Source of the DNA: Actinomycetota bacterium | Lineage (GTDB): Bacteria > Actinomycetota > JAICYB01 | DNA length: 43,096 nt | NCBI GenBank assembly: GCA_035540895.1 | Contig: DATLFR010000063.1 | Coordinates: forward strand, 1 to 43,096 | Direction of reading: 5' to 3' | Part shown: in pieces, positions 829 through 21,962 of the stretch | Layout: the number at the start of each line of letters is the position of its first letter | How positions within the stretch are numbered: position 1 is the first letter of the stretch | Program-made: the position numbers and the translations under genes | The notes under the pieces: generated by a model | Databases searched by the model: none | What the model saw: the letters and a program-made list of their open reading frames with translations, nothing else | What the model was told of the DNA's origin: nothing

Positions 829-2568
829 TCAGAGGTACTGGCCAGGGGTGATCGTCTCCACGGGGCGCCGCTCCCGGCCCTCCCCGAGCAGCGTCCGGAC
901 GTACACGATCCGCTCGCCCTTCTTGCCGGAGATGCGGGCCCAGTCGTCCGGGTTCGTCGTGTTGGGGAGGTCCTCGTTCTCCTTGTACTCCTCGCGGATG
1001 GCGACGAGTAGGTCGTCCCCCTTGATACCCCGCTCCCCCTGTTCCAGCAGCCGCTTGATCGCCATCTTCTTCGCGCGCTGCACGATGGACTCGATCATGG
1101 CCCCCGACGCGAAGTCCTTGAAGTACATGATCTCCTTGTCGCCGGATGCGTACGTGACCTCGAGGAACCGGTTGTCGTCGGTCGCCTCGTACATGCGGTC
1201 GACCACCCGGTCGATCATCGACTTCACGGTCGCCTCGGCGTCGTCCCCGTGGCGAGCCAGATCCTCGGCATGCAGGGGGAGATCGGCCGTCAGGTAGATG
1301 GCGAAGATGTGCTTCGCCGCATCGGCGTCGGGGCGCTCGATCTTGATCTTCACGTCGAGGCGTCCCGGGCGCAGGATGGCCGGGTCGATGAGGTCCTCCC
1401 GGTTCGAAGCCCCGATCACGATGACGTTGCGCAGGGACTCGACGCCGTCGATCTCGGCGAGCAGCTGGGGGACGATGGTCGTCTCCATGTCCGATGAGAT
1501 GCCGGTGCCCCGCGTGCGGAACAGGGAGTCCATCTCGTCGAAGAACACGATGACCGGTACGCCCTCGGACGACTTCTCCTTCGCCCGCTGGAAGATCAGC
1601 CGGATCTGACGCTCGGTCTCCCCCACGTACTTGTTGAGCAGCTCCGGCCCCTTCACGTTCAGGAAGTAGCTGCGCGCGTCGGGGTTGCCCGTCTTCTCGG
1701 CCACGCGTTTGGCGAGCGAGTTGGCCACGGCCTTCGCGATGAGCGTCTTGCCGCAGCCGGGGGGCCCGTAGAGCAGCACGCCCTTCGGGGGGCGCAGCTT
1801 GTGCTCGGCGAACAGGTCCCCGTGCAGGTACGGGAGCTCGACGGCGTCGTGGATCGAGACGATCTGCTGCTGGAGGCCGCCGACGTCCTCGTACGCGACA
1901 TCGGGCACCTCCTCCAGGATCAGCTCGTCGACCTCGGGCTTGGGCAGCTTCTCGACGAGGTACCCCGAGCGAGCCTCGAACAGGATGTGGTCTCCGGCGC
2001 GGAGGTGGACGCCGCGCAGCGAGTCGGCGATCAACGCGACCCGCTCCTCGTCGGCGTGGGAGACGATCAGCGCCCGGTCTCCCTCCTCGAGCACCTCCTT
2101 GATCGTCACGACCTCGCCCGCCGTCTCGAACCCGCAGGCCTCGACGACGTTGAGCGCCTCGTTGAGCATGACCTCCTGTCCGAGCGCGATCTGCTTCGGG
2201 TCGAGCGTGGGGTGGACGTTGACGCGGAGCTTGCGCCCCCCCGTGAAGATGTTGGCCGTCCCGTCGTCGTTCAGACCGAGGAATACCCCGAACCCGGACG
2301 GCGGAGCGGTGAGCTTCTCGACCTCCTCGCGCAGGAGCGCTATCTGCTGGCGCGCCTCCCGCAGGACCCCCACCAGCCGCTCGTTCTGCTGGAGCGCCTG
2401 GACCAGCCGCGACTGGACCTCCCGGATGCGCTCCTCCATGGCCCGGACCGAGCGCGGCTCACCGCGGCGGGACTCCGTGACCGCGCCGAGCTGGGAGCGC
2501 AGCTCCTCCAGCTCGCGCTCGATGTCCTCGAAGCGCCCCTCCTCGGGCTCCTGGCCCCGTGGGCTCAT
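829..2568 (-). CDS. mpa: Proteasome-associated AAA ATPase (Mpa/ARC)
   Basis: A 579-residue hexameric unfoldase that feeds pupylated proteins into the 20S proteasome. Residues ~5-95 are a Glu/Arg-rich coiled coil that binds Pup in known homologues. A double OB region follows ([13 protein letters not shown] onward). The AAA module has Walker A GPPGCGKT, Walker [13 protein letters not shown] and arginine-finger region [13 protein letters not shown]. The last residues are GQYL, giving the C-terminal hydrophobic-Tyr-X motif that docks into the proteasome alpha ring. The open frame extends far upstream, but ATG at 2568 has AAAGGTGG before it and begins the coiled coil, so the extension is not coding. 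No dop, pup or proteasome subunit gene is visible; they may lie beyond the left edge. Confidence 0.97.
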
Positions 2569-2596
2569 CCGGTCCACCTTTCCTCGGGGTAGGGCC

Positions 2597-2602
2597 AGTA
2601 TA
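2597..2602 (-). promoter_or_regulatory. Putative -10 box of mpa
   Basis: TATACT on the minus strand, 28 bases upstream of the mpa ATG, followed by a leader carrying the AAAGGTGG ribosome-binding site. No convincing -35 box is seen. Confidence 0.5.
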
Positions 2603-2634
2603 GGTACCGACCCCCGACACCACCGCGCACTGGT

Positions 2635-2640
2635 TACCTT
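2635..2640 (+). promoter_or_regulatory. Putative leaderless -10 box of the PLP decarboxylase gene
   Basis: TACCTT followed by exactly six bases and then the ATG at 2647. There is no Shine-Dalgarno sequence. The same hexamer and spacing precede the gene at 42409, which suggests transcription starting at or next to the start codon. Confidence 0.5.
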
Positions 2641-2646
2641 TGTCCG

Positions 2647-3858
2647 ATGCGCCTCCCCGACCAGGGCCGGACGCCCGAGGAGCTGTTCGCGACCATGCGC
2701 GAGCGCAAGCGGGCGGACGCCGATTGGCGCGGCGGACGGACCTTCAGCCTCGTCTACCCAGCCTCCCCCGAGATCGACGAGGTGTTGACCGAGGCGAACC
2801 TCCTGTACCTGTTCGAGAACGCGCTGAACCCCGCGCGCTTCCCCAGCCTGAAGCAGATGGAGGACGAGGTGGTCTCGATGACCGCGTCGGTGCTCCGCGC
2901 GCCCGATGGAGCCGGCGGCTCGATGACCTCGGGAGGGACGGAGAGCATCCTCATGGCCGTGAAGACGGCCCGCGACGAGGCGGGGGTCGACTCCCCCTCG
3001 CTCGTGGCTCCCATCTCGGCGCATCCGGCGTTCGCCAAGGCGGCCCACTACCTGGGGATCGAGCTGCGCCAGGCGAGGCTGGACGCCGACCTGCGTTGCG
3101 ACGTCGAGCACGCCCTCTCTTTGGTGGACGGGAGCACGGTGCTCATGGTCGGATCGGCGCCGGGTTACCCCCACGGGGTGATCGACCCGATCGAGGAGCT
3201 CGCGGCGGCGGCCGCGGAGCGCGGGATCGCCTTCCACACGGACGCCTGCCTGGGCGGGTTCCTGCTCCCCTTCATGGAGCGACTCGGGCACGAGGTCCCC
3301 GCGTGGGACCTCCGGGTGCCGGGTGTGACCTCGATCTCGGCCGATGTCCACAAGTACGGGTACGCGACGAAGGGCGCGTCCGTGATCGTCCATCGCGACC
3401 GTCACAGACTGGAGCACCAGGGGTTCCTGTACGACGCGTGGCCCGGGGGACGGTACGGGTCGCGGGCCCTGGCCGGCGCCCGCGCGGCCTCCCCCATCGC
3501 CGCCGCCTGGGCGGTGATGACCCACCTCGGTTGGGAGGGCTACCGTGCCCAGGTCTCGAGGATCCTCGACACGGTCGCGCGGGTGCGCGAGGCCATCGGG
3601 TCCATCGACGGTCTGCACCTGTGGGGTGACCCCGTGGCGTCCGTACTGGCCTTCGGCTCGGACAGCCACGACATCTTCGCCGTCGGAGACGTCATGGACG
3701 ACCTCGGGTGGCACCTGGACCGCCAGTCCGGCCCGGACGCCCTGCACATGATGATCTCACCCGCCCACGATGCCGTCGTGAGCGGGTTCACGGACGACCT
3801 CCGTCGCGCCGTCGAGGCCGCGACCGTTTCGCGGGGTCGGGAGGCTCGCTACTCCTGA
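2647..3858 (+). CDS. PLP-dependent group II decarboxylase / sphingosine-phosphate lyase family
   Basis: A 403-residue fold-type I PLP enzyme. Visible signatures are [14 protein letters not shown] (phosphate-binding and cofactor stacking region), [13 protein letters not shown] (the Asp that contacts the pyridine nitrogen), and [13 protein letters not shown], where the Lys after His forms the Schiff base. Length and order match bacterial sphingosine-1-phosphate lyase-like and tyrosine/aspartate decarboxylase-like proteins; the substrate cannot be decided from sequence alone. It is transcribed divergently from mpa with a short intergenic region and no ribosome-binding site, consistent with a leaderless mRNA. 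It converges on the acyl-CoA dehydrogenase gene across a compact hairpin. Confidence 0.88.
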
Positions 3859-3859
3859 C

Positions 3860-3877
3860 GGGCCCTCGACAGGGCCC
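3860..3877. terminator. Hairpin between convergent genes, likely bidirectional terminator
   Basis: A perfect 7-bp inverted repeat GGGCCCT / AGGGCCC with a CGAC loop sits between the stop codons of the decarboxylase and the acyl-CoA dehydrogenase. There is no T-run, as is common in high-GC actinobacteria. Confidence 0.55.
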
Positions 3878-3886
3878 ACCGTCCGG

Positions 3887-5089
3887 CTAGTCGGACGCCA
3901 GCGCCCTCGATATGACCAGACGCTGGATCTCCGACGTCCCCTCGAACAGCGTGTAGATCTTGGAGTCCCGGTGCCACTTCTCGACGGGGAAGTCCTTGAT
4001 GTAGCCGTACCCGCCCAGGACCTGGATCGCCGTCTCGGTCACCTTCACGGCCGCCTCACCGGCCTTCAGCTTCGACATCGAACCCTCGGCGTTGCTGAAG
4101 GCCTGTCCGGACGCGGCCATCCAGGCGGCGCGCCACACGAGCAGGCGCGCGCAATCGACCTCGACGGCCATGTCCGCGAGCTGGAAGGCGATGCCCTGGT
4201 GCTGGTAGATCGGCACGCCGAACGCCTTGCGGTCCTTCGCGTAGTCGACGGCGAACTCGAGCGCGGCGCGGGCGATCCCCACCGCCTGGCAGGCGACCAG
4301 CGGCCGCGTGATCTCGAAGGTGCGCAGGGCACCCGAGGAGCGGCCGGTCGACTGTCCGGACTTCGCGCGCTCGAGCTTGCCCTCGAGCTTCTCGATGCCC
4401 CCGAGCACGTTCTCGACCGGGACGAAGCAGTCCTCGAGCAGGACCTCCGCGGTGTGGGAGGCCCGGATGCCCATCTTCTTCTCCTTCTTGCCCTGCTTGA
4501 TCCCCTGGTGGTCCTTCGTCGAGATGATGAACGTGGCCTGGCCGCGGTGTCCGAGGTTCGGGTCGACGGTGGCGACCACGAGGTGGACGTCCGCGATCCC
4601 GCCGTTGGTGGCGAAGACCTTCTGTCCGTTCAGGACGAAGCCGTCCTCGACCCGCTCCGCCTTCGTGCGCAGGGACGAGACGTCCGAGCCGGCGTTGGGC
4701 TCCGTGACGCAGAACGCGGCCACCGCGGGGTCGTCGGGGGTGCCGAACATGCGCGGCGCCCACGTGAAGAGCTGCTCGGGGGTCCCCCCGGCGGCGAGCG
4801 CGGAGAGCGGAAGCCCGGTGCCGAAGATGGCCAGGCCGATGCCGGCGCATCCCCAGAAGATCTCCTCCATCACGAGCGGCATGGAGAGCCCGGTCGGGTC
4901 CTGTTGGGTCTGCAGGTAGATGTCCGGGCCGTAAAGGCCTACCTCAGCGGCGCGCTTCACGACCTCCCACGGGAACTCCTCCGTGTCGTCGTACCGTTCG
5001 GCGACCGGACGGATCTCGTTCTCCGCGAAGTCGTGCGCCCACTTCTGAAGTTCCTTCTGCTCCTCTGAGAGGGCGAGGCTGAAGCTCAT
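3887..5089 (-). CDS. Acyl-CoA dehydrogenase
   Basis: A 400-residue FAD flavoenzyme of the acyl-CoA dehydrogenase family, catalysing alpha,beta-dehydrogenation of acyl-CoA thioesters. Signatures include CVTEPNAGSDVSSL in the middle domain, IRASHTAEVLLEDCFVP, the C-terminal flavin-binding segment VLGGYGYIKDFPVEKWHRD, and YTLFEGTSEIQR, which carries the catalytic Glu. The start at 5089 is supported by a strong AAGGAAGGAGC ribosome-binding site. It lies 25 bases downstream of the ProA-like gene on the same strand and may be the last gene of that transcription unit, although its own ribosome-binding site allows independent expression. Chain length and pathway are not determinable. Confidence 0.95.
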   Translation of the reverse strand: MSFSLALSEEQKELQKWAHDFAENEIRPVAERYDDTEEFPWEVVKRAAEVGLYGPDIYLQTQQDPTGLSMPLVMEEIFWGCAGIGLAIFGTGLPLSALAAGGTPEQLFTWAPRMFGTPDDPAVAAFCVTEPNAGSDVSSLRTKAERVEDGFVLNGQKVFATNGGIADVHLVVATVDPNLGHRGQATFIISTKDHQGIKQGKKEKKMGIRASHTAEVLLEDCFVPVENVLGGIEKLEGKLERAKSGQSTGRSSGALRTFEITRPLVACQAVGIARAALEFAVDYAKDRKAFGVPIYQHQGIAFQLADMAVEVDCARLLVWRAAWMAASGQAFSNAEGSMSKLKAGEAAVKVTETAIQVLGGYGYIKDFPVEKWHRDSKIYTLFEGTSEIQRLVISRALASD

Positions 5090-5114
5090 CTGTGCCGCTC
5101 CTTCCTTGGTGCGT

Positions 5115-6578
5115 CTATCGCCGTTGCGGTGCCTCGCCCGTCGTGTCCACGAATACGTCTCGCACCGTGAACACGTCGTCCCCTGCGAGGATCCCGGAAC
5201 GACCCAGCAGCCGTCCCCGCTCCCAGTTCGTCAACCCTAGCTCAGGGCGTCCCCACGCCCACTGCCCATCGACCCATCTGGTGAACCCGTTGCCCACGTA
5301 CGGGACCTCCGTACGAGCATAGAACCGCTCGAATCGTTCGCGGGACGCGGTCACGACCGAGGCGACGAAGCGGGGGCTGTAGCGGTTGACGAGGTCCACG
5401 GCCTCCTCGTCGGACCCCACGAGAGCGATCGACACCTCGGGCGTGCGGTCCCACTCCCACTCGGTCCCGAAGCCGTCGACGGGAAGCGTCTCGACCTGGG
5501 GCTCCTCGACCTCCCCGTCCTCGCGGCGCACGGTCACCATGCGCTCGGCCAGCTGAGGCGGGACGAGCGCCCGGGCCTCGGGGGCCGCGTGGAGACGGAC
5601 ATCCGGGTCGCGTTCGAGCAGCGCCTGCAGCGCCACATCGAAGAGGCGTTCCGACGCGTCGCGGTGCACGAGCAAGACGTTGAGCGTGTTGCAGACCTTG
5701 CGGTCCACCGAGTGCCGGACGGCGTTCGCGGCGGACGAGGGATCCGCGTCCTCCGCCAGGTACATCCAGGCTCCCCCGGTCCCGTGGAGGGAGGCCGGTA
5801 TACCGTGCTGCTCGGCGATCGCGCCCAGCTGCGAGACGGCGCGTCCCGACCCCCTCGCCACCGCGAGCCTCACCTCGGGCATCGTGAACAGGGCCCAGGC
5901 CGCCGCGTGCGACCGCGACCGGAGGAGCGACACCGCGCCGCGCGGGAGCCCGGACGATGCGAGGGCGGGCTCGAGGGCCTGCTCCTGGATCGCGATGGCC
6001 GTCCCGAGCGCGTCGGACCCGATCCGCATCACCGCCGCGTTGCCGTTGCGCAGCACCCCCGAACCGTCCGCGAACACGTTGGGGCGGCCCTCGAAGACGA
6101 ACGCGACGACCCCCAGGGGAGCGATGCGGCGCTCGATGCGGTACCCGTCCCCCTCGCGCGTCTCGATCACCTCGCCTCGACGGGACCGGGCAGCCGCCCA
6201 CTCCCTCAGACCGGAGATCATGTCCGCGCGCATCTTCGCGGTGGCCTCGAGACGGGTGGTGGGGCGGCCACGCTCGCGCGCGGCGGCGAGATCCGCCTCG
6301 TTGGCGTGCGCGATATCCGTCCAGATGGAGTCGTCGGCCAGGCGGTCCGCGAAGATCTGGAAGAACCCGGTGATCGCCTCGTCGGGGGCGTCGGCCAGCG
6401 CCGGGAGGGCTCCCGCCGCGGCGGCGACCGCCTCCCGTGCGGCCGCGTGCTCGGCCGCGGGCACGACGAGCAGCTCGCCGGTGGCGTGGACGGCTATCAC
6501 CCGGTCGTCGGGGGCGGTGTCCGGCATGGGGACGGTCCGGTCCCCGACGACCACCGGCGTGCCCGCGGGGATCGTCAC
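5115..6578 (-). CDS. Gamma-glutamyl-phosphate reductase-like aldehyde dehydrogenase
   Basis: 487 residues, longer than the usual ~415 of ProA because of a ~55-residue N-terminal segment. The body reads as ProA: GVVAFVFEGRPNVFADGSG, VLRNGNAAVMRIGS, and RKVCNTLNVLLVH with the catalytic Cys. The C-terminus (GLTNWERGRLLGRSG) departs from the usual ProA ending, and no proB kinase is adjacent, so it may be a divergent member with another acyl-phosphate or aldehyde substrate. The start is GTG at 6578, overlapping the trmI stop by four bases (GTGA), so translation is probably coupled. It is the last gene of the M50/TtuBA/TrmI operon. Confidence 0.75.
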   Translation of the reverse strand: MTIPAGTPVVVGDRTVPMPDTAPDDRVIAVHATGELLVVPAAEHAAAREAVAAAAGALPALADAPDEAITGFFQIFADRLADDSIWTDIAHANEADLAAARERGRPTTRLEATAKMRADMISGLREWAAARSRRGEVIETREGDGYRIERRIAPLGVVAFVFEGRPNVFADGSGVLRNGNAAVMRIGSDALGTAIAIQEQALEPALASSGLPRGAVSLLRSRSHAAAWALFTMPEVRLAVARGSGRAVSQLGAIAEQHGIPASLHGTGGAWMYLAEDADPSSAANAVRHSVDRKVCNTLNVLLVHRDASERLFDVALQALLERDPDVRLHAAPEARALVPPQLAERMVTVRREDGEVEEPQVETLPVDGFGTEWEWDRTPEVSIALVGSDEEAVDLVNRYSPRFVASVVTASRERFERFYARTEVPYVGNGFTRWVDGQWAWGRPELGLTNWERGRLLGRSGILAGDDVFTVRDVFVDTTGEAPQRR

Positions 6579-7363
6579 GCTTCCGGGACCCCCACGCGCC
6601 GAGCCACCATCAGCCATGCCGTGTGGGCGACCATGCGGTGGTCCGGTCGGACCGAGAGGCCTTCGACCTTCCAGGTCCGGTGCAGGGTCTCGAACGTCTG
6701 GACCATCCCCCAGCCGGGCCGGTCGAGGGCCTCGGCCATGCGCTGCACCTGGGGGACGGTAGGCATGTACACGGTGAGGATCCCGCCCGGACGCAGCGCG
6801 CGCTCGAGGTTGTCGACCGCCATCCACGGTTCGGTCACGTCGAGGACCACCCGGTCCACGACGATGTCGAGCGGGTCGGTGTAGAGGTCGGCCAGTCGGG
6901 CGTCCAGGGTGCCGTACGAGGGGTCGGAGCCGACGAACCGCTCGATGTTGCGGAGCGCCGTGCGCTGGTGGTCCTCCCGGCGCTCGAGCGTGTGCACCGT
7001 CCCCTTCGGCCCGACGGCACGGAGCAGGGCGAGCGTCAGCGAGCCCGAGCCGGTGCCTGCCTCGAGCACGCGCGCCCCGGGGAAGATGTCTCCCCAGACC
7101 ACGATCGGACCGACGTCCTTGGGGTAGACGACGGTCGCGCCGCGCGGCATCTTCAGCACGTAGTCGGCCAGCGTCGGCCGGAGGGCGCGGAACCTGCGCC
7201 CTTTCGAGCTGGCCACGAGCACGCCCTCCTCCGCCCCGATGATCTCGTCGTGCGGGAGCGGGCCGTGATGCGAGTGATACGCGCCTCCCGGCTCGAGCGT
7301 GATCAGGTAACGCCTCCCCCGCCCATCGATGAGCAGGACCAGGTCTCCCGCGGAGAAGGTCAC
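6575..7363 (-). CDS. trmI: tRNA (adenine-58-N1)-methyltransferase TrmI
   Basis: 262 residues. It transfers a methyl group from SAM to N1 of A58 in the tRNA T-loop, as a tetramer in known bacterial homologues. The N-terminal part is a small beta domain. Then come YPKDVGPIVVWGDIFPGARVLEAGTGSGSLT (motif I, SAM binding), TLERREDHQ, and the motif IV-like segment VVLDVTEPW. The start is GTG at 7363, overlapping the stop of the upstream thiolase gene by four bases; its stop overlaps the next start in the same way. In mycobacteria trmI also lies close to mpa, so the neighbourhood is partly conserved. The coupling to a T54 thiolase is functionally apt. Confidence 0.93.
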   Translation of the reverse strand: MTFSAGDLVLLIDGRGRRYLITLEPGGAYHSHHGPLPHDEIIGAEEGVLVASSKGRRFRALRPTLADYVLKMPRGATVVYPKDVGPIVVWGDIFPGARVLEAGTGSGSLTLALLRAVGPKGTVHTLERREDHQRTALRNIERFVGSDPSYGTLDARLADLYTDPLDIVVDRVVLDVTEPWMAVDNLERALRPGGILTVYMPTVPQVQRMAEALDRPGWGMVQTFETLHRTWKVEGLSVRPDHRMVAHTAWLMVARRVGVPEA

Positions 7364-8484
7364 GCCGACTCCCGGGACGCCTTGCGGCGTTTCATCTCGA
7401 CCATGCGGCAGAACGCGCAGACATCGCCCGGCGTGGGCATCCCGCACGAGGAGCACGCGTGGAGCGCAGGGGGGCCCTCCGCGGTGAACCTCTCCTTCGC
7501 TCGGTCGATGAACCCGCCGTAGAAGGAGGCCTTCGTCCCGGGGGCGGCCTGCTCGAGGAGGTCGAGGGCCTGCTTGTAGCGGAGCTGCGTGTTGCCGGCG
7601 ACGAGCGGGCACTCCTCCACCAGGTAGTCGATGCGTCGCAAGAACGCGTAGGTCGCCGTCTCCTTCTCGCTCAACCGGTGCAGGGGCTTCACCTTCCGGA
7701 CGAACCCCGTGTCGTCTCCCAGCACGGGGCCCTGTCGGGCCAGGTACTCGGCGTCCCAGCGCAGCGTGTTCCCGAGCAGGACGGCCGCCTCGTCATCGAG
7801 GTTGTGTCCGATCGCGATCACGTCGAACCCGCCGTCGCGCGCCGCCTTGCTTATGAGGTGTCGCTTCGTCAGCCCGCAGGCCGAGCAGGTGGGGCGCCCG
7901 GTGTCGTGCGGGAGGTCGGGGATGGTGAAGCCGAACTCGGCCGCGAGGTCGCTGACCACGAGCTCGACCCCGCGTGATCCGGCGAACGACCTGCAGATGC
8001 GCAGCGACTCGGCGGCGTACTCGTCGCCGGTGCCAAGGACGATGTGGAAGCCGGTCGTGTCGTACCCGAGGTCGATCAGGACGTCCCACAGGGCGAGGGA
8101 GTCCTTGCCCCCGGACACCGCCACGAGCACCCGGTCGCCTTCTCGCAGCATCCGGTCGGACTCGATCGCCCTGGACACCTGGTTGCGGAAGAAATGCAGG
8201 AAGCACTCCTTGCAGAAGGCTGTGTTGTGGCGCCGCAGCTCGACGACCGCCTTCGCCTTGCAGCGGCGGCACTTGGTCGTCGTGGCGGCTCCCCCCGATA
8301 TCACCGGACGGATCTCGATGTGGTCGCCGTCCTCGATGACGTCCTCCCGGGTGAGGAGCTCGTCGCCCCTGATCACGAGCACGGTGTCGGCGTCGATGTC
8401 CAGGTCGCGCAGTACGACCTTCACCCGCTTGGGGCCGTCCACCGACACCTCCCGGCGCGGGTTGCGCAGCACGATCGTCGCCAT
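7360..8484 (-). CDS. ttuA: Fused TtuB-like sulfur carrier and TtuA-like tRNA 2-thiolation enzyme
   Basis: 374 residues in two parts. Residues 1-65 form a ubiquitin/ThiS-fold sulfur carrier ending in VISGG, very like Thermus TtuB, including the RGDELLTREDVIEDGDHIEI stretch. The rest is a TtuA/Ncs6-type PP-loop ATPase: N-terminal zinc site CRRC...CKEC, PP-loop SGGKDS, CSACG plus a later Cys in EECPL that can hold the 4Fe-4S cluster, and C-terminal zinc site CSSC...CAFC. Known TtuA converts m5U54 to m5s2U54 in the tRNA T-loop using the C-terminal thiocarboxylate of TtuB. Here the Gly-Gly is internal and followed by AATTTK, so processing or a different sulfur route is needed. ATG overlaps the upstream stop by one base. 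Confidence 0.88.
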   Translation of the reverse strand: MATIVLRNPRREVSVDGPKRVKVVLRDLDIDADTVLVIRGDELLTREDVIEDGDHIEIRPVISGGAATTTKCRRCKAKAVVELRRHNTAFCKECFLHFFRNQVSRAIESDRMLREGDRVLVAVSGGKDSLALWDVLIDLGYDTTGFHIVLGTGDEYAAESLRICRSFAGSRGVELVVSDLAAEFGFTIPDLPHDTGRPTCSACGLTKRHLISKAARDGGFDVIAIGHNLDDEAAVLLGNTLRWDAEYLARQGPVLGDDTGFVRKVKPLHRLSEKETATYAFLRRIDYLVEECPLVAGNTQLRYKQALDLLEQAAPGTKASFYGGFIDRAKERFTAEGPPALHACSSCGMPTPGDVCAFCRMVEMKRRKASRESA

Positions 8485-9548
8485 CAGACCGTCGCCTCCA
8501 GTCGGGCGCGCACGGCCGGGTGGTCGAGCACCCCCACGACGGCCCCCGCGTCGTCGACCACGATCAGCACCCCGTCCGCCGCGACCGACAGCTTCTCGAG
8601 CGCGCGCGACATCGGGAGCCGGTGTGAGCAGCTGATCCGCGGGCTCCAGGGGACCATGAGGTCGCGGACGCGCGCGAACGGGTCGACATCGGCCGAGAAG
8701 GCGGAGGGAAGCAGCACCCCGTCCAGACGACCGCCGGACGAGACCGCGTACGGTCCCCCGCCGCTCGACCGAACGTACGCGGCGGACTCGTCCCCCGTCA
8801 GGGTGCCGGTGATCGGACGCGCGTAGTCGGCGGCCGGCTGGCGCGACAGGCGCGAGGTGATCCGCGAAGCGCGCCGGGCCGAGCTGGCGAGCACGTACAG
8901 GAACCCCCCGACGACCGGCAGCCACAGCGCCTCACCAAGTTGACGACGCCAGGCCACGACGAGCCCGACGACGATGAGCAGGACCGCGAATACCTGTCCC
9001 ACGATCGCTGCGCGGATGGACGACCGGTGGGGATCGTCGCTGCGCGACCACAGCCAGGCCCGGAGCAGGCGTCCCCCGTCGAGCGGGTAACCGGGGAGCA
9101 GGTTGAAGAGGGCCACGACGACGTTCGCCCACCCCACCACGCGCAGGACCGCTCCCGTGTCGCTGTCCCCCGCGGCCAGCAGCAGCCCGGCGCCCAGGAC
9201 GAGACTGGCGGCCGGACCCGATGCCGCGATAGCCGCGTCCTGCGCGGGGCGCGAGGGCTCCCGGTTTATGCGAGCCACTCCCCCGAAGATGAACAGGGTG
9301 ACGTCGCGGACCGGCACCCCGATCGACCTGGCCGTCTGGGCATGCACCAGCTCGTGCACGAGCAGAGAGAGGAAGACACCGAAGGTGGCCGCGGCCGAGA
9401 GCCAGATGGCCGAGGGGAGCCCGTGGGAGTCGTAGACCTCCAGGGCCAGGATGCAGGCGAGCAGCAGCGCCGCCGGGAACCACGACCCGTGGACTACGAG
9501 GGGGATCCCGAACGGACGGCCGAGCCGGACGCCGCGCCAGACCTGCAT
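8484..9548 (-). CDS. M50 family (site-2-type) membrane metalloprotease with C-terminal CBS-like region
   Basis: 354 residues. The zinc motif HELVH lies in the second membrane segment, and the second metal site NLLPGYPLDGG follows, both diagnostic of M50 intramembrane proteases. The first residues MQVWRGVRLGRPFGIPLVVH are typical of this rhomboid-unrelated, SpoIVFB-like group. There are about five or six membrane segments, then a soluble tail with weak CBS-domain character (DLMVPWSPRIS, then VLIVVDDAGAVVGVLDH). The start at 9548 is chosen because homologous sequence begins there; the longer open frame is Arg/Ser-rich noise. It heads the TtuBA-TrmI-ProA operon. Substrate unknown. Confidence 0.88.
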   Translation of the reverse strand: MQVWRGVRLGRPFGIPLVVHGSWFPAALLLACILALEVYDSHGLPSAIWLSAAATFGVFLSLLVHELVHAQTARSIGVPVRDVTLFIFGGVARINREPSRPAQDAAIAASGPAASLVLGAGLLLAAGDSDTGAVLRVVGWANVVVALFNLLPGYPLDGGRLLRAWLWSRSDDPHRSSIRAAIVGQVFAVLLIVVGLVVAWRRQLGEALWLPVVGGFLYVLASSARRASRITSRLSRQPAADYARPITGTLTGDESAAYVRSSGGGPYAVSSGGRLDGVLLPSAFSADVDPFARVRDLMVPWSPRISCSHRLPMSRALEKLSVAADGVLIVVDDAGAVVGVLDHPAVRARLEATV

Positions 9549-9560
9549 GGGGATGAGCCC

Positions 9561-9570
9561 AGAGTACCAT
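9561..9570. promoter_or_regulatory. Overlapping divergent -10 boxes between M50 protease and binding-protein genes
   Basis: Only 31 bases separate the two divergent starts. TACCAT (9565-9570) lies nine bases before the TTG start on the plus strand. TACTCT (9566-9561 on the minus strand) lies twelve bases before the M50 ATG. Neither gene has a ribosome-binding site. No -35 boxes are recognisable, so this is tentative. Confidence 0.35.
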
Positions 9571-9579
9571 CGCTGTGTT

Positions 9580-10371
9580 TTGGACCCCCTACGCGCACGG
9601 GCCGCACTCCTATCCGCTCTGCTGATCGCGGGGCTCCTCGTGGGGTGCAACCGGGCCGATCGCGAGGCGGGCGGGGTCGGCTGCCGCGGCTCCCGCCTGG
9701 AGCTGATCCGGCCCCAGACCTTGCTCGTGGGAGCCGATGTCGGGATCGAACCGTTCGCGTTCCGTCGGGAGGGTGAGCTGACCGGGTTCGAGGTCGAGCT
9801 CATGCGGGAGCTCGGCCGCCGCATGAACCTCGAGGTGGAGATCGTGAACCGGACCGCACCGGGACTCCTGCCCGGGTTGATCGCGAAGCGCTACGACGCG
9901 GTGGCGGCGGCCGTCCGGACGAGCGCCGAGAACCGCGCCCAGGTCTGCTTCTCCGCCCCCTACCTCGAGGCCGACCTGGCGGTCGTGTCGACCCGCGCGT
10001 TCGAGGACCTGTCCGCGGTCCCGGACGGCACACGCGTCGCCGTCGAGGCCGGGTCCGTCGCCTCGGCCTGGACCGGCCGCAACCTCGACCGCCGCCTCGA
10101 CGCGGACGTCGTCCCCACGTTGCAGGACGTCCTCCGTGCCGTAGACGAGGGGGGCGTCGCGGTCATGGACCTGGCGAACGCCCGCGCCCGGGCCAAGGAC
10201 ACCCGGCTGCGCATCGTCGAGGTGATCGACACGGGCGAGGACCACGCGGTCGCCTTCCACCCCGACGGCGGCGCCCTGCGGGATCGGATCTCGCAGCGGA
10301 TCGAGGCGATGCGCGAGGACGGGTCGCTCGAGGCGCTGGAGAAGGAGTGGTTCGGGGAGCGACCGGGATGA
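9580..10371 (+). CDS. Lipoprotein, amino-acid-type (family 3) solute-binding protein
   Basis: 263 residues. The N-terminus is a lipoprotein signal: Arg residues, a hydrophobic run ALLIAGLLVG and the lipobox Cys (LVGC). The mature part has the family 3 pattern: LLVGADVGIEPFAFRREGELTGFEVELMREL, KRYDAVAAAV, then VCFSAPYLEADLAVV and EAGSVASAW. Known relatives bind amino acids outside the membrane for ABC importers. The start is a TTG at 9580, since no ATG or GTG occurs in frame before the signal peptide. No permease or ATPase gene is adjacent. Instead its stop overlaps the start of the thioredoxin-like gene (ATGA), which suggests a linked or sensory role. Confidence 0.85.
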   Translation: MDPLRARAALLSALLIAGLLVGCNRADREAGGVGCRGSRLELIRPQTLLVGADVGIEPFAFRREGELTGFEVELMRELGRRMNLEVEIVNRTAPGLLPGLIAKRYDAVAAAVRTSAENRAQVCFSAPYLEADLAVVSTRAFEDLSAVPDGTRVAVEAGSVASAWTGRNLDRRLDADVVPTLQDVLRAVDEGGVAVMDLANARARAKDTRLRIVEVIDTGEDHAVAFHPDGGALRDRISQRIEAMREDGSLEALEKEWFGERPG

Positions 10372-10865
10372 GGGAGACGCTGAACCAGCACTCGTACGCG
10401 TTCGTCGTCGTGTCCGTGCTCGTCGTCTCCCTGGTAATGCTGCGCAGGTTCGGCGGGGGCCTCCGACTCCTCGGGTTGATCTCGGTGATCGCGGCGCTGG
10501 CCGTCGGGTGGCTCGTCCTGCGTCCGGGCTCGGGGGACGTCAGGGCGCCCGAGGACCTGGACCGCGCCCTCGCGGACGGCCGTCCGGTGATGCTCGAGCT
10601 CTACTCGAACTACTGAGCGGTCTGCCTGGCGAGCAGACCCGTGGTCGACGGGATAGCGCGGGAGTACGAGGAGCGGGCGACGGTCCTGCGGGCGGACATC
10701 CAGTCCGAGGCGGGAGCCGAACTGGCCAGGCGCCTGGACGTCTCGGTCGTGCCCACGTTCGTCTTCTTCGGTCGGGATGGGAGCGAGGTGACGCGGTTCG
10801 GGACGACGCTCAAGGCGTCAGAGGCGCAGCTCCGACGAGGGTTGCGCCAGGCGGGAGCCCCCTGA
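10368..10865 (+). CDS. Membrane-anchored thioredoxin-like selenoprotein (UxxC, in-frame TGA)
   Basis: Predicted 165 residues if TGA at 10614-10616 is read as selenocysteine. Two N-terminal hydrophobic segments (YAFVVVSVLVVSLVML and LLGLISVIAALAVGWLVL) anchor it, with the thioredoxin domain after them. The first strand VMLELYSNY is followed by TGA-Ala-Val-Cys, the place of the CxxC active site. The helix PVVDGIAREYEE and the cis-Pro loop VSVVPTFVFFG follow in the same frame, without another stop until 10863. GC-rich codon use continues unbroken across the TGA. A hairpin lies directly after it. A conventional annotation would give a truncated protein and miss the domain. Alternatives are a nonsense mutation or a base error. 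Confidence 0.72.
10617..10652 (+). promoter_or_regulatory. Candidate SECIS hairpins downstream of the in-frame TGA
   Basis: Two overlapping options exist. First, a perfect 7-bp stem GGTCTGC (10619-10625) / GCAGACC (10633-10639) with loop CTGGCGA. Second, CCCG (10638-10641) / CGGG (10649-10652) with loop TGGTCGA, whose loop begins 25 bases after TGA. That falls in the usual bacterial spacing and has GGTC like the E. coli fdhF loop. The second has a short stem and the first sits closer than usual, so which one SelB would bind is unresolved. Confidence 0.5.
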
Positions 10866-12380: not shown

Positions 12381-12464
12381 GTCGGAGTGGCGGAATAGGC
12401 AGACGCGCATGGTTGAGGGCCATGTCCCCGCAAGGGGGTGGGGGTTCAAGTCCCCCCTCCGACA
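12381..12464 (+). tRNA. tRNA-Leu (anticodon GAG)
   Basis: A full class II cloverleaf can be drawn by eye. The acceptor stem GTCGGAG pairs with CTCCGAC, with a discriminator A. The D-arm is GCG/CGC around GAATAGGCAGA. The anticodon stem CATGG/CCATG holds loop TTGAGGG (anticodon GAG). The long variable arm is CCCC-GCAA-GGGG, and the T-arm is GGGGG-TTCAAGT-CCCCC. CCA is not encoded. A lower-GC block begins about 60 bases after its 3' end, the typical place for island insertion. Confidence 0.96.
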
Positions 12465-12527
12465 CAACGCGATCGTGGACACGACCCTACTTCTGAGACA
12501 CGATCCCCACTTGAGGGACTGCCCGTC

Positions 12528-13859
12528 ATGAGGATTGACTCACTCCGAATCCAGGCATATCGGTCGCTCTATGATGTCCACCTTCGACCTTCCCCCTTTC
12601 TTGTCCTCGTTGGTCCCAACAATTCGGGCAAGAGCAACTTGTCCGAGGCCCTCGACTTTTTGGGAGATACTTACGAGTTGGGGCTCGAATTCGCGATTAC
12701 CCGCAAGGGAGGCTTCGAGAGCATCGCTCACCGTCGCCAACGGCGAACGAAGCAGCCTCTGACTATCAGCATTACCGTCTCATTCTCGGCGGAAGATCTG
12801 TCCCGCCGACCTCGTTCAGTGCTTCAACCACAGCGGCGGGTCCTGTTTGATCAACCTGATCAAGCTGTGATTCGGCTCGAGCACTCCTTCTCAATCGCTG
12901 CAGCGACACAGCGCCGCGACACAGACTTCCACATTCGGCACGAGCGGATTCACATCTCGCAGGTGAAGAAGCACGACGCCCTTGATGGAGCCCGCCTACC
13001 AATGACCATTGAGCGAAAGCACAATGAGGTTGACTTCCATGTTTCACGGAAGCGCGGGCGGACTCAGAACCCGAAGGACCGGGTGAGATTCGACAGCCCC
13101 TTCTATCCTCTTATCGAGTCCGATTTCCAATCGTTTCTTCGACAACAAGTCACCGATACCGAATTGCTTGTCAAGCATCTCGATTACACACCCATACTAA
13201 TGCTCTTCCAACGCGATCTAGCCGCAACCAGGTTGTACCAACTCAGCCCCCTGGAGTGCCGCCAGCCTGGAGTGGTTACTCCGAATGCCAACATCGACGA
13301 GCACGGTCGTAATCTACCGGCGCTAGTACACTTGATGCAGCGCCGTTATCCACAGGAGTGGAAACGAGTACTGCGCGCCATGGATAAGATTCTTCCAGAA
13401 CTCACTGACGTCTCAATCGGGTTTACCCACGATCGCCGGATAACTCTACAATTCCATGAGGATTCGGTAGGCCGACCTTGGACCCCTGAAGACATGTCGG
13501 ATGGGACAATCCAAACCCTAGCCCTGTTCGCCGCACTTCATGACCCAAGAAGCCCCTTGGCAATAGTTGAAGAGCCCGAGAACTCAATACACCCATGGAT
13601 AATTCGAAGTTTCGTCGATTCGTGCCGGGAAATCGGCTACAAACACATCATTCTTACAACACACTCTCCCGCCCTAATCGATTATCTTCGACCAAGTGAA
13701 GTAGTCGTGATCTGGCGCCAATACGGGCGCACGAAGTTAGTGCCACTGCTAGAGTTGGCCCCGGGTGCGGAGGATGACTGGGCCCACGGCAGGCTCACGG
13801 TGTTCCAATTGCTCGACTCTGGTCTCCTTCCAGAGGCGATTCCAGCTGGCTACCGATGA
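12528..13859 (+). CDS. AAA/ABC-type ATPase of the OLD-like family, likely defence
   Basis: 443 residues. It begins MRIDSLRIQAYRSLYDVHL, the usual start of SMC/OLD-like AAA proteins. Walker A is GPNNSGKSNL. The signature and Walker B region is EDMSDGTIQTLALFAAL ... LAIVEEPENSIHPW, and the H-loop is TTHSPALIDYL. The long central insert is typical of the group. The start at 12528 is chosen over an upstream ATG that lies inside the tRNA. The gene uses many A/T third positions, unlike the flanking genes, so horizontal origin is likely. Its stop overlaps the next start (ATGA). By analogy with other ATPase/Toprim pairs such as PARIS and Gabija, it may sense phage; that is inference. Confidence 0.88.
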   Translation: MRIDSLRIQAYRSLYDVHLRPSPFLVLVGPNNSGKSNLSEALDFLGDTYELGLEFAITRKGGFESIAHRRQRRTKQPLTISITVSFSAEDLSRRPRSVLQPQRRVLFDQPDQAVIRLEHSFSIAAATQRRDTDFHIRHERIHISQVKKHDALDGARLPMTIERKHNEVDFHVSRKRGRTQNPKDRVRFDSPFYPLIESDFQSFLRQQVTDTELLVKHLDYTPILMLFQRDLAATRLYQLSPLECRQPGVVTPNANIDEHGRNLPALVHLMQRRYPQEWKRVLRAMDKILPELTDVSIGFTHDRRITLQFHEDSVGRPWTPEDMSDGTIQTLALFAALHDPRSPLAIVEEPENSIHPWIIRSFVDSCREIGYKHIILTTHSPALIDYLRPSEVVVIWRQYGRTKLVPLLELAPGAEDDWAHGRLTVFQLLDSGLLPEAIPAGYR

Positions 13860-14467
13860 GAATCGGAATTGTCGTAGATGGCGAGGCTGAATACGCCTCG
13901 CTCACACTCATGTTCCCCGCTCTCCAAGCCCATACCAATCATACTCTGCTTCACCCGGTCTTGGCCAAAATTCAGCCCTATGCGCCTCCGGGCGCAATCG
14001 CCCAACGGTGCACACTTGCCTCGCGAGCGTTCCTGCACAAATCGCCCGACCTAATCGTGGTTCTCTTCGATCGTGAGAATCGCAGTGAATGTTGCGGGAC
14101 TCTGGCTCGACAGGTCGAGGCATCCCTAGAATCCGGAATTCCTTGCTCAGTAGGCGTCGTAGTAAAAGACCGGATGTTCGAGAATTGGCTTGTCGCTGAC
14201 TTGGACGCTCTGGAGCAACAGCCCGCTCGATTCCGTCTGAGCCAAAGGGATAGGCGACTCGTTGCTCCAAACAAGTCCGACCGCTGCGACGCCTTGAGTC
14301 TCCTGAAACGTGCGACTGGACATGAGTACGACAAGGTCAGAGATGCGAAGAACGTGCTTAAGCGAGCAAGCCCGGAAAGGATTGCTGCAAACTCACGCAG
14401 TTTTCGTGGTTTTCTACGTCTCCTTGGGGACCCCGATTACCTAGACCAGAGCCTCAACCCCCGCTGA
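13856..14467 (+). CDS. DUF4276 (Toprim-like) protein paired with the AAA ATPase
   Basis: 203 residues. Start MRIGIVVDGEAEYASL supplies the N-terminal acidic residue of a Toprim-like fold. LIVVLFDRENR supplies the D-x-E type motif, and KDRMFENWLVADLDALE matches the E-x-W-L-x-A-D signature of DUF4276. These would bind metal in a nuclease or primase-like active site. It overlaps the ATPase gene by four bases and shares its lower-GC codon use, so the two form one transferred unit. Expected role is effector nuclease activated by the ATPase, inferred from the architecture of related pairs. No experimental link is known to me. Confidence 0.8.
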   Translation: MRIGIVVDGEAEYASLTLMFPALQAHTNHTLLHPVLAKIQPYAPPGAIAQRCTLASRAFLHKSPDLIVVLFDRENRSECCGTLARQVEASLESGIPCSVGVVVKDRMFENWLVADLDALEQQPARFRLSQRDRRLVAPNKSDRCDALSLLKRATGHEYDKVRDAKNVLKRASPERIAANSRSFRGFLRLLGDPDYLDQSLNPR

Positions 14468-14525: not shown

Positions 14526-17500
14526 CTATCCCTGATTACTCCCCCATCGACTAGAGATGTACTTCTCGCGTTCGGTGGGGTCAGAAATCTCGCGGGTTCC
14601 GTTCCCGATCCGGACGTAGAAGGACGTCTTGGTCTCCAGCTGACCCTTTCGGTCCACCACGACCTTGGCCTCCACCGGGAAGCTGCTCGGCGGCACGTGA
14701 ACCCGGCAGATGTCGTCCCCGTTGATCGTGTGGATCTCGCTGGATACCGAGCTGGCCGCGGTCTCCCCCACCGCGTTGATCAGCAACTGACTGAGATGGA
14801 GCAGGAATCGGTCCCGGTCCCCCTTGCCTTCCTTCCTCAGTGAGGCGTAATCCGAAGACAGTCCGTGGACGGATCCGTCATCCGCCACCCCGATGAGCAG
14901 CGTCCCGCCCTCTCGGCTGTTTGCGAACGCCGCGATCGTCTTGATCGACGCCGTCTCCAGCGACTTGTAGACCTCACCCGTGTCGGCCCCCGTCCGCAGC
15001 GTCGCCTTGAACTCGAGGTGGCTATTCTCGGTCCCGGTCGCCAGCAGCTCACCGATCGGGCAGTGCTGCTGGTACGCCACCCTCGCCCGCGCCTGGGCCA
15101 GGGTCGCGTACACCTTGATTACGTCCGCTGCCAGGGCCTCGTCGTCCAGGAACTTGTAGACCACCTTCTCGTTGCGGTCCATGCGCCCGAGCAGAGCCTT
15201 CTGGAACATCTCCGGGAAGACGACCCCGAAGTTCTCGGCAGTGTTGTTCACAGCCGTCACTTGGACGTCCTCCTGGGAGACCAGGTCTTCCAGCGCGGCG
15301 TCAAAGACGAGCCGGTCGGCGTCGGACCAGTCCGTGCCGTAGAGGGCGTTCAAGCGGTCGATAATCACGGACAGGCGCTCGTCGTCGGGCTCGTTGAGGC
15401 GTCCGGTCCCAGAGTAGATCGTGGTCACCTCTCCCCCATCGCTACCCAACGACACCGAACCCGCGAACTGCTGCTCGTTGCGAAGGTGGGTGAGCTCGAG
15501 CGCTCCGCTGAGGTCCACGGCCGCTCCGGCGTCCGCCTTGATAAACGCCTGCAACGCCTTGCCGAACAGGTAGTCACGCTCCAGCTCGGTGTCCACGAAC
15601 GACACTATCTGGGACAGAAACGAGTAGATGCGCACGAATCGCCCGAGCGCGTCCCGGAAGCGTTCCTGCTCGTCCTCCTCCAGGTCTCTGAACCTGTCGA
15701 TCGCCGGGCCCAGCGCAGCGTGCAGTCGTCCGTGGTCTGCGCTCTCCGAGAGCAACAGCCGGGCGAACGTCACAGCCTCCTCGGCTACAAGCACGCCGAA
15801 CTCGTCTAGGGCGTGACGCGTGTCGTAGAGGAGGTTGGGATCGGATGGGGGTGCGACGGTCCGGCCGTGATAGGGCTCGAAAGCCGCCGCTATCTCATCG
15901 GCGTCGTTGACGAAGTCGAGGACGAACGTGCCGTCCTTGTCCGGGTGCGTGCGGTTGAGCCGGGACAGCGTCTGGACCGCGGCCAGTCCGGTAAGGGTCT
16001 TGTCCACATACATCGCGTACAGCTTGGGCTGGTCGAACCCGGTCTGGAACTTCTCGGCCACCACCATGAGCTGATACTCGTCGCTGTCGAAGCGCTCGGC
16101 CGTCTGCGACTCCGGGAACCCGTTGCAACGGCCTTCCGTGACCGGCTCCCCTCCGTTGAGCGGCACCGCATCGGAGAACGCGACGAGCACGCCCAGGTCG
16201 TATCCGTTCTCGTTGACGTAGGCGCGCAGAGCTTCCCAGAAGCGCACCGCATGGAGCCTGGACGAGCACACGACCATGCCCTTCGCCTGTCCGGCCACCT
16301 TGTGGGCGACGTGGGCCCGGAAGTGCTCGACAACGATCTCCGCCTTCTGGGACAGGTTGTGCTCGTGCAGGATGACGAACCGGGCGATGGCTCGCCGCGC
16401 CTTGGCCGTCTCGTAGGCCGGGTCGTCCGCGATCGCCTTCTCGAGGTGGAAGAAGGTCTGGTAGGTCGTGTAGCCGGCCAGGACGTCGTGGATGAACCGC
16501 TCCTCGATCGCCTGACGCATCGAGTAGAGATGGAAGGGCTCATGGCGGCCGGTATCCGGATAGTGGCGGCCGAACAGCTCCAACGTCTTGCCCTTCGGAG
16601 TGGCGGTGAACGCGAAGAAGCTCATGTTCTCCTGCCGTCCGCGCGCGGCCACGGCCTCGGCCAAGACCTCCTGGACCTCATCCACCGGGATGTCCGGCTC
16701 CTGAGCCTGGGAAACGCCGAGCAGGCGGCGCAGCTCCTTGGCGGCCTCACCGCTCTGCGACGAATGGGCCTCGTCCACGATGACCGCGTAGCGACGATCC
16801 GGGAGATCGACGCCCTTCTTGATGACGACGGGGAACTTCTGAAGGGTCGTGATGATGATGCGGGCCTGCTCGCCCGCCAGCGCGTCGGCGAGCTGCTGCG
16901 AGGATTTGTCGATCCGCTCCACCACGCCGTGAGCGTGCTCGAACTGATAGATCGTGTCCTGGAGCTGGCGGTCGAGGATGACGCGGTCGGTGATGACGAC
17001 GACCTTGTCGAACACCTTGTCGTCGCCTCGGTGGAGCGTGGACAGCCGGTGGGCGAGCCAGGCGATCGTGTTGGACTTCCCGCTTCCCGCAGAGTGCTGA
17101 ACGAGGTAGGAGTGGCCGGGACCCTCCTCCCGGGCCGAGGCTTCCAGGTGCCGGACGGCGTCCCACTGGTGGTAGCGCGGGAATATGACCTGTCCCGGAC
17201 GCTTGGACCCCCTCGCCGGCTTCACCTCATGGACGAACCGTCCGAGGAGGTCGAGCCATGCGTCCCGCTGCCAGACGCGCTCCCACAGGTAGGAGGTGGC
17301 GTGTCCGTCGGGGTTGGACGGGTTGCCCGCTCCCCCATCCCGGCCTTGGTTGAAGGGAAGGAAGCGGGTGTTCTGTCCGGCGAGCTGCGTGGTCATGGCC
17401 ACACGCTGCGGATCGACGGCGAAGTGAACGACCGCCCGGGCCAGGGTCCTGTTCCGGGCGTCACGGTCGGTGCGGTACTGATGGACGGCCTGCTCAACGC

Positions 17501-18008
17501 CCTGTCCGGTGAGGGGGTTCTTCAGCTCTGCGGTGGCCACGGGGACGCCGTTCACGAACAGGGCCAGGTCGACCGACTTGCCGGAGCCGGGGTCGTAGCG
17601 GAGCTGTCGGGTGGCCGTCAGGCGGTTGGCCCGGTATCGCTCGACCAGCTCGGGGGTGAGCCCGTGGGCGGGCTTGAAGTACGCGATCCGGAGGGTGACG
17701 CCCTGGTCGACGACGCCGTGGCGCAGGACGTCCACCACCCCCCTCTTGTCGAGCTCGGACGAGAGCCGATCCGCGAACCTGGACTGGGTGGCGTCGGGGT
17801 CGTTGCCATAGTTCTTGACCAGCCGCTGCCACTCGTCGGACTGCGTGGCCCCGATGAACGCATAGAGCTCGGACGTGTCGAGGGCCCGGTCCGGATCGAA
17901 GTCGCGGGCCGGACCCTGCTCCTTGTCGTTCTTGACCACGTACCCACCTTGGAAGGCGAGCCAGTCACAGATGGAGGCCTCGAAGAGATCTTCGGACGGG
18001 TTACTCAA
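14526..18008 (-). CDS. hsdR: Type I restriction enzyme R subunit with C-terminal AlbA_2/Schlafen-like domain
   Basis: 1160 residues. The N-terminal nuclease has the D...ExK pattern (VDLALFVNGVPVATAELKN). The translocase has Walker A HSAGSGKSNT, the DEAH box VIVDEAHSSQSG, FTATPKGKT, and helicase motif VI region VQTLSRLNRTHP. Residues ~990-1160 carry an unusual extra module, with NSHLEFKATLR, then TIAAFANSREGGTLLIGVADDG, the hallmark of AlbA_2/Schlafen-type domains. The start is TTG at 18008, overlapping the PIN gene by eight bases, since no ATG precedes the conserved N-terminus. It is the last gene of the hsdM-hsdS-antitoxin-PIN-hsdR block. Confidence 0.95.
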   Translation of the reverse strand: MSNPSEDLFEASICDWLAFQGGYVVKNDKEQGPARDFDPDRALDTSELYAFIGATQSDEWQRLVKNYGNDPDATQSRFADRLSSELDKRGVVDVLRHGVVDQGVTLRIAYFKPAHGLTPELVERYRANRLTATRQLRYDPGSGKSVDLALFVNGVPVATAELKNPLTGQGVEQAVHQYRTDRDARNRTLARAVVHFAVDPQRVAMTTQLAGQNTRFLPFNQGRDGGAGNPSNPDGHATSYLWERVWQRDAWLDLLGRFVHEVKPARGSKRPGQVIFPRYHQWDAVRHLEASAREEGPGHSYLVQHSAGSGKSNTIAWLAHRLSTLHRGDDKVFDKVVVITDRVILDRQLQDTIYQFEHAHGVVERIDKSSQQLADALAGEQARIIITTLQKFPVVIKKGVDLPDRRYAVIVDEAHSSQSGEAAKELRRLLGVSQAQEPDIPVDEVQEVLAEAVAARGRQENMSFFAFTATPKGKTLELFGRHYPDTGRHEPFHLYSMRQAIEERFIHDVLAGYTTYQTFFHLEKAIADDPAYETAKARRAIARFVILHEHNLSQKAEIVVEHFRAHVAHKVAGQAKGMVVCSSRLHAVRFWEALRAYVNENGYDLGVLVAFSDAVPLNGGEPVTEGRCNGFPESQTAERFDSDEYQLMVVAEKFQTGFDQPKLYAMYVDKTLTGLAAVQTLSRLNRTHPDKDGTFVLDFVNDADEIAAAFEPYHGRTVAPPSDPNLLYDTRHALDEFGVLVAEEAVTFARLLLSESADHGRLHAALGPAIDRFRDLEEDEQERFRDALGRFVRIYSFLSQIVSFVDTELERDYLFGKALQAFIKADAGAAVDLSGALELTHLRNEQQFAGSVSLGSDGGEVTTIYSGTGRLNEPDDERLSVIIDRLNALYGTDWSDADRLVFDAALEDLVSQEDVQVTAVNNTAENFGVVFPEMFQKALLGRMDRNEKVVYKFLDDEALAADVIKVYATLAQARARVAYQQHCPIGELLATGTENSHLEFKATLRTGADTGEVYKSLETASIKTIAAFANSREGGTLLIGVADDGSVHGLSSDYASLRKEGKGDRDRFLLHLSQLLINAVGETAASSVSSEIHTINGDDICRVHVPPSSFPVEAKVVVDRKGQLETKTSFYVRIGNGTREISDPTEREKYISSRWGSNQG

Positions 18009-18426
18009 CGCTCGGCCCCCCGGCGAATGGGTTCAAGACCTTGACGCCGGTCCGCGCGATATCAGTCGTGTTCCGAGTCACCAAGGTCAGATCATGGACC
18101 TTGGCGGTTGCAGCCAGGAGTCCGTCGACGACTGGGAGAGGGTCAGGGACGTTGAGTCGCCCCCATTCATCTGCGACCTCAGCCGTGACAGGCAGGATGC
18201 GGTCGGTATAGGTGGAGTTGGTCCCCTCCAGCCATCGATCGAGCTCGTCGGCTTGAGCGGGATCACGACGTCGGAGCCGCTCGATCCCTGAGCGGATCTC
18301 GCCGACGACGAGCACGCTGAGGAACAGTGAGGAAGGTGAACGAGCGCGTAGCCACTCCTTGACCGCATCGTCGCCCGAACGCCTGCGGGCCTCGGAGAGA
18401 ACATTCGTATCGAGGAGGAACGCTAT
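18001..18426 (-). CDS. PIN-domain toxin (VapC-like) with apparent ATA start
   Basis: 141 residues if translation begins at ATA 18426. The frame then opens as (start)AFLLDTNVLSEARRR, exactly where VapC proteins begin with Met, and DTN is the first catalytic motif. Later acidic residues follow in SVLVVGEIRSG and in PLPVVDGLLAATA. The first ordinary start codon in frame (GTG at 18315) would remove the first catalytic Asp. ATA overlaps the antitoxin stop as ATAG, the geometry seen for ATGA overlaps. So either a rare ATA start is used through coupling, or a start codon was mutated and the toxin is weak or silent, or there is a base error. PIN toxins cleave RNA, often tRNA. Confidence 0.75.
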   Translation of the reverse strand: MAFLLDTNVLSEARRRSGDDAVKEWLRARSPSSLFLSVLVVGEIRSGIERLRRRDPAQADELDRWLEGTNSTYTDRILPVTAEVADEWGRLNVPDPLPVVDGLLAATAKVHDLTLVTRNTTDIARTGVKVLNPFAGGPSVE

Positions 18427-18665
18427 AGCGCCACCTCTCGGGGCATATCCGAGCTTCGCTCCAGTTCCAGATCGTCGAAGGGGGGACCCTCCAGCAGGAA
18501 TTCGACGAAACTCGGACGCTCCCCCACGAGCTCCTCATAGCGCTCGGCGGACAACACGACGACCACGGCCTCCCCATGCCGGGTCACGACCTGGGGGCCC
18601 TCGGTGAGGGCGCGACGAACCACCTCGCTGAGGCGTTGTTTGGCGTCTTGCAGCTTCCAGACCAT
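18423..18665 (-). CDS. Phd/YefM-family antitoxin
   Basis: 80 residues. The N-terminus MVWKLQDAKQRLSEVVRRAL and VTRHGEAVVVVLSAERYEEL are the standard Phd/YefM DNA-binding fold. The C-terminal acidic tail (FDDLELERSSDMPREVAL) would wrap the toxin. The ribosome-binding site CAGGAG precedes ATG at 18665. A palindromic operator overlapping a -10-like TAATCT lies directly upstream, so the pair should repress its own promoter. It sits between hsdS and hsdR. Confidence 0.9.
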   Translation of the reverse strand: MVWKLQDAKQRLSEVVRRALTEGPQVVTRHGEAVVVVLSAERYEELVGERPSFVEFLLEGPPFDDLELERSSDMPREVAL

Positions 18666-18676
18666 CCTTGCTCCTG

Positions 18677-18691
18677 TCTAGACGGTCTAGA
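18677..18691. promoter_or_regulatory. Palindromic operator of the toxin-antitoxin pair
   Basis: TCTAGAC-G-GTCTAGA, a perfect 7-bp inverted repeat around one base, 12 bases upstream of the antitoxin ATG. It overlaps a minus-strand TAATCT (18694-18689) that can serve as the -10 box. This is the usual layout for Phd autoregulation. Confidence 0.7.
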
Positions 18692-18709
18692 TTAGCTCAG
18701 GAGCCAATG

Positions 18710-21888: not shown

Positions 21889-21962
21889 GACTCCCCCGAG
21901 ATTCGAACGTGCAGCCATGGTGACATCTGGCGGGCATGGAGGGCCGACCGGCTCGGATCGAG

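Follow-up and report, generated by a model that had tools for sequence, protein, structure and literature searches.

A predicted thioredoxin-fold selenoprotein with a two-helix membrane anchor in a genome of the Actinomycetota

Reading frame, fold and selenocysteine machinery

In a stretch of 43,096 nucleotides from an Actinomycetota bacterium (the window, by which we mean the whole stretch analysed), a thioredoxin-like frame is interrupted by a TGA at its active site, which raises the question of whether this codon ends a short membrane protein or is translated as selenocysteine (Sec). The gene (10368-10865, forward strand) runs for 82 codons up to the TGA at 10614-10616 and for another 82 codons up to a true terminating TGA at 10863-10865, near which the ends of homologues also fall; the read-through product would have 165 residues. 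A candidate ribosome-binding site read from the sequence (GGGGAG or nearby, approximately 10353-10358, same strand) lies 5' of the ATG. Residue 83 stands in the context LELYSNY-U-AVC, at the position of the first Cys of CxxC in aligned thioredoxins. According to the preliminary description, the TGA splits the frame exactly at the active site (SNY-U-AVC), and indeed the Pfam thioredoxin match (PF00085, E = 5.5e-10) extends across it, from residue 62 to 146. The half after the TGA continues in the same frame and includes the cis-Pro loop VVPT, both of which are visible in the sequence. This match across the TGA, together with many relatives carrying TGA at the same codon, shows that the split frame exceeds chance.

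AlphaFold2, given an alignment built from 12 proteins of the window and the loci, modelled a single thioredoxin domain with block pLDDT values of 92-97 from residue 71 onward, in which residue 83 immediately precedes the helix that follows the domain's first strand. Foldseek gave hundreds of matches at E <= 0.001; thioredoxins ranked highest, with TMt values of up to 0.86 against solved structures, and DsbD-gamma was also matched. The domain (about residues 62-160, active site U83-A-V-C86) follows two hydrophobic helices (about residues 11-29 and 32-51), and hydropathy and AlphaFold2 agree on the two-helix membrane anchor proposed earlier. Read by eye, the charges flanking the helices point outward in the window protein and inward in the L029 relative.

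The preliminary description also proposed looking for selA, selB, selC and selD in the same genome, and all four are present in the assembly (2.64 Mb, 97.7% complete, a draft of 245 contigs). The tRNA-Sec gene (selC) has the anticodon TCA and scored 76.3 bits, and the genes for SelB (355.9 bits) and SelA (524.8 bits) lie near each other on one contig. SelD (380.6 bits) has an in-frame TGA of its own in the motif HGAG-U-ACK, where selenophosphate synthetases usually carry Sec or Cys.

Gene neighbourhood and described systems

Upstream of the thioredoxin gene lies a gene for a family-3 solute-binding protein (9451-10371, forward strand; PF00497, E = 8.6e-26), a predicted lipoprotein with the lipobox LLVGC, whose true start is probably 3' of 9451. 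Its TGA overlaps the thioredoxin ATG by 4 bases (ATGA, 10368-10371). An M50 protease gene is found further upstream and a LipJ-like hydrolase/cyclase gene downstream on the other strand. The coupling to a binding protein that had been suggested rests on this overlap, which was seen at no other fetched TGA-thioredoxin locus. No relative of the binding protein was found at those loci, and the two closest homologues of the thioredoxin lie behind an alpha/beta hydrolase gene. The 4-base overlap, seen in this genome only, makes translational coupling likely here and leaves a shared function as a guess, plausible but unproven. It is doubtful that the gene represents a distinct class of two-helix-anchored seleno-thioredoxins that is coupled to a lipoprotein binding protein and acts as an extracytoplasmic, selenium-dependent redox partner or sensor of that protein or of its ligand.

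Other parts of the window hold recognizable gene groups. On the minus strand, positions 829-9824 encode an M50 protease, a TtuA-like tRNA thiolase, a TrmI methyltransferase and a proteasomal AAA ATPase, which suggests a proteasome neighbourhood of actinobacterial type; the TrmI and proteasomal ATPase genes would fit an origin in the Actinomycetota. Downstream, at 12381-14467, a tRNA-Leu(GAG) adjoins an AAA_21 ATPase gene (12438-13859) that overlaps a DUF4276 gene (13856-14467) by 4 bases, a candidate anti-phage pair resembling HEC-01/PARIS. Genes for the type I restriction-modification proteins HsdR, HsdS and HsdM follow directly (14526-21918), and together with the HEC-01-like pair they form a candidate small defence island at the tRNA.

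UxxC selenoproteins of the thioredoxin family have long been listed (PMC1794560, PMC9312934, PMC13188914 Table 1), as the preliminary description assumed in calling them an established bacterial type. The members of this selenoprotein family (PF00085) likewise combine a thioredoxin domain, Sec in place of the first Cys, a SECIS element close 3' and Cys homologues, whereas the window protein adds a two-helix N-terminal anchor; the reference member was compared by its description. Against the housekeeping thioredoxin model TIGR01068 the window protein scored 39.6 bits, below the cut-off of 96.8. Membrane-tethered Cys thioredoxins and the C-terminal domain of DsbD likewise have a membrane-linked thioredoxin domain; the window protein differs from them in its Sec active site, its two-helix anchor and the lack of an adjacent CcdA gene. 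TsoB (NF045694), a rhodanese/DsbD fusion-like protein listed with a UxxxxU motif (PMC13188914), is much larger, and the thioredoxin part of the window protein matches it weakly (20.9 against a cut-off of 805). A text search of the literature, with subscription journals mostly outside its reach, found no bacterial membrane-anchored seleno-thioredoxins. The comparison gives good support to regarding the gene as a further member of an already described type of bacterial selenoprotein and not as a new type; its two-helix anchor is a minor variation.

The nearest described system is that of SaoT (NF040730), likewise a UxxC thioredoxin with a substrate-binding protein gene alongside; SaoT and the binding protein SaoB are both listed as selenoproteins (PMC13188914). 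Since the UxxC thioredoxin gene of the window overlaps a binding-protein gene, it might encode the Sec protein of an SAO-type transport system. This is very improbable, because neither of the two proteins matches its profile (NF040730 for SaoT, NF040727 for SaoB) at E <= 0.1, the binding-protein gene has no in-frame TGA, and among the neighbouring genes examined beside the locus none encodes the permease, the ATPase or SaoC.

Conservation of the TGA codon and of a downstream hairpin

At a threshold of E <= 1e-9, 25 of 397 sampled genomes of the phylum gave a match to the protein, and in 12 of them, including that of the window, a match has one in-frame TGA. A profile search of one related class added further TGA relatives, and a second phylum sample with a different centre, which returned largely the same genomes, added one genome. 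The total is 30 TGA-thioredoxin genomes with the window's included. TGA was read at the identical codon in 28 of the other 29, G148 being counted from the search output alone, codon position aside. Ordinary relatives have Cys at this codon, so that the relatives carry Cys or Sec where the preliminary description had proposed to look for a redox residue. SelB scored over its cut-off in 27 of the 30 TGA-thioredoxin genomes and in 24 of 44 genomes lacking such a gene (Fisher p = 0.001; the sample was partly hand-chosen and the p value ignores kinship). The three without a SelB above the cut-off were G094, G255 and G296, two of which are at most 91% complete and one 97% complete.

The nearest full-length relatives, in G159 and G296, come from one genus of a different class and are 34-35% identical to the window protein. 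They share its two-helix anchor, its N-Q-H-S-Y start, the TGA and both halves; other relatives show one helix only or a signal of lipoprotein type, and some carry an N-terminal rhodanese domain. Between G159 and G296, changes in either half fall mainly at third codon positions and dN/dS is about 0.09 before and about 0.16 after the TGA, which argues that both halves are under purifying selection as protein. In the half after the TGA, 8 codon changes are synonymous and 5 alter the amino acid, with the frame intact. In the pair L029/L030, dS is much lower after the TGA (0.18) than before it (0.66), as a result of RNA constraint, recombination or chance.

Closer to the window's own lineage, the gene was not found in the two other genomes examined of its family, and three genomes examined of its order and class yielded no close homologue beyond the window's own. 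One member of the family, G001, has a SelB of 342 bits, yet no match to the two-helix Sec-thioredoxin. A scan of named genomes gave a single weak match and a plasmid search four distant ones, of which those annotated are ordinary thioredoxins.

Several of the relatives have settings of their own. Three loci (L035, L041 and L053, in G131, G185 and G164) encode rhodanese-thioredoxin fusions whose thioredoxin active site contains the TGA (UPTC); these fusion selenoproteins are weakly TsoB-like, but have a UxxC motif. Six others (L066, L071, L073, L074, L076 and L077) come from one family, in which the Sec-thioredoxin gene is flanked by those of an ordinary thioredoxin and of a protein that by eye resembles metal-sensing repressors of the CsoR/RcnR type. 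In G105 (G105:C38:54331-56474; L042, L064), G126 and G342, Sec-thioredoxin genes adjoin a gene with CMRC/CH motifs, possibly for a c-type cytochrome, and in G105 two of them surround it.

Two hairpins follow the TGA of the window. The 7-bp hairpin that the preliminary description placed two bases past the TGA is present (10619-10639, forward strand; arms GGTCTGC at 10619-10625 and GCAGACC at 10633-10639), but we rejected it as a SECIS element, as it is not conserved and its pairing across relatives, 42.9%, equals that of shuffled sequences (mean 42.3%). The second hairpin (10638-10652, forward strand) pairs CCCGT (10638-10642) with ACGGG (10648-10652), a CCCGU/ACGGG stem in the RNA, around a GGUCG loop (GGTCG in the DNA, 10643-10647). 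This loop lies 29-33 nt from the U of the UGA, at the SECIS distance claimed for it earlier, and provides the small apical loop with a G, close 3' of the UGA, that characterizes bacterial SECIS elements. Bases 10638-10639 are common to both hairpins, which therefore cannot form fully together. Single-sequence folding says little for either: the folding energy of 10590-10680 alone was not clearly better than that of shuffles (z = +0.27 to -0.97), and under loose criteria a SECIS-like hairpin occurs at 38% of the sense codons of ten window genes, so that hairpins alone are weak proof. That the second hairpin of the window is not unusually stable and competes with the first counts against a Sec reading, as do the three TGA-thioredoxin genomes without SelB above the cut-off and the failure to find the gene in the two other genomes examined of the window's family.

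Comparison across relatives gave a strong signal, and by this means only did the second hairpin reach significance. Between the TGA and +57, a gap-free alignment was obtained for 28 TGA sequences, counting that of the window, and for 33 Cys relatives. The helix from +24 to +38, which corresponds to the second hairpin, was the best of all possible 5-bp helices of this 57-nt region in the TGA set, with 87% of cells paired compared to 37% in the Cys set, and sliding it by one base cut the pairing to 44-46%. Extended to 7 pairs over 25 distinct sequences, it showed a covariation of 0.399 against 0.136 in shuffles, none of 500 of which reached it, although kinship of the sequences inflates such counts somewhat and the contrast with Cys relatives removes this only in part. 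The covariation is present in register only, with both partners altered in 28 cells; at pair 27-37, 12 sequences have C-G and 10 have G-C, while A-U, C-G, G-C and G-U all occur at pair 28-36. From the same alignment, RNAalifold chose the three innermost base pairs of the helix. In addition, a hairpin of 8 bp in the SelD gene of this genome places its 5-nt loop (AGGUG) at +29 to +33, as in the thioredoxin gene. The second hairpin, and not the first, is probably the SECIS element.

All these data suggest that the UGA at 10614 is almost certainly read as selenocysteine, and we place at about 95% the probability that the product of the gene is a selenoprotein, namely a thiol-disulfide oxidoreductase of thioredoxin fold held by two transmembrane helices. 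Misreading of UGA, by near-cognate Trp-tRNA or with Cys on tRNA-Sec under selenium shortage, is known in selenoprotein systems and might supply the main product here, but as the genome has the entire Sec pathway, with SelD itself of the Sec type, and the SECIS covaries, this deserves very little credit. It is still harder to maintain that the TGA is a nonsense mutation in a pseudogene, or a sequencing or assembly error, that replaced TGC or TGT and left the second half untranslated. Either codon is one base from TGA and the genome is a 245-contig draft; against this, the same codon is TGA in independent assemblies from distant families, the half after it retains frame and fold, its GC content by codon position (0.73/0.54/0.88) is close to that of the neighbouring gene (0.74/0.51/0.92), and the hairpin is conserved in TGA relatives only. 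Relatives with the same TGA refute mutation, pseudogene or error for the thioredoxin family and make a base error in the window copy very unlikely. Equally remote is a true stop, with an 82-residue two-helix product and a second half perhaps started separately: the frame 10347-10616 is open as such, but no gene boundary is visible at the TGA, the domain would be cut within its active site, and both halves and the TGA are conserved jointly in the closest relatives.

Proposed decoding and implications

The scheme proposed here builds on what was established computationally: the frame, the fold, the Sec machinery, the conservation of the TGA and a covarying hairpin. When a ribosome reaches the UGA at 10614, SelB carrying GTP and Sec-tRNA would bind the hairpin at 10638-10652, and selenocysteine would be inserted at position 83. 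Decoded in this way, the gene would yield a redox protein that contains selenium and is tethered to the membrane by its two helices. Sec83 would be the attacking residue of the UxxC site, and Cys86 would resolve the mixed selenide-sulfide. Re-reduction could come from a carrier of the CcdA/DsbD type or from cytosolic partners, depending on the side of the membrane on which the domain lies; the genome holds one DsbD_TM/CcdA-like protein, which could pass electrons outward. If selenium were lacking, the chain would end at residue 82 and comprise no more than the two helices and the beginning of the domain.

Annotation by gene callers that take TGA for a stop would reduce the protein to a membrane fragment of 82 residues. 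A SECIS element backed by covariation and by contrast with Cys homologues is stronger evidence than the fold of a single sequence, and such comparison could help the prediction of selenoproteins in GC-rich genomes, where chance hairpins abound. With about 30 genomes found from modest samples, seleno-thioredoxins prove to be widespread in the phylum.
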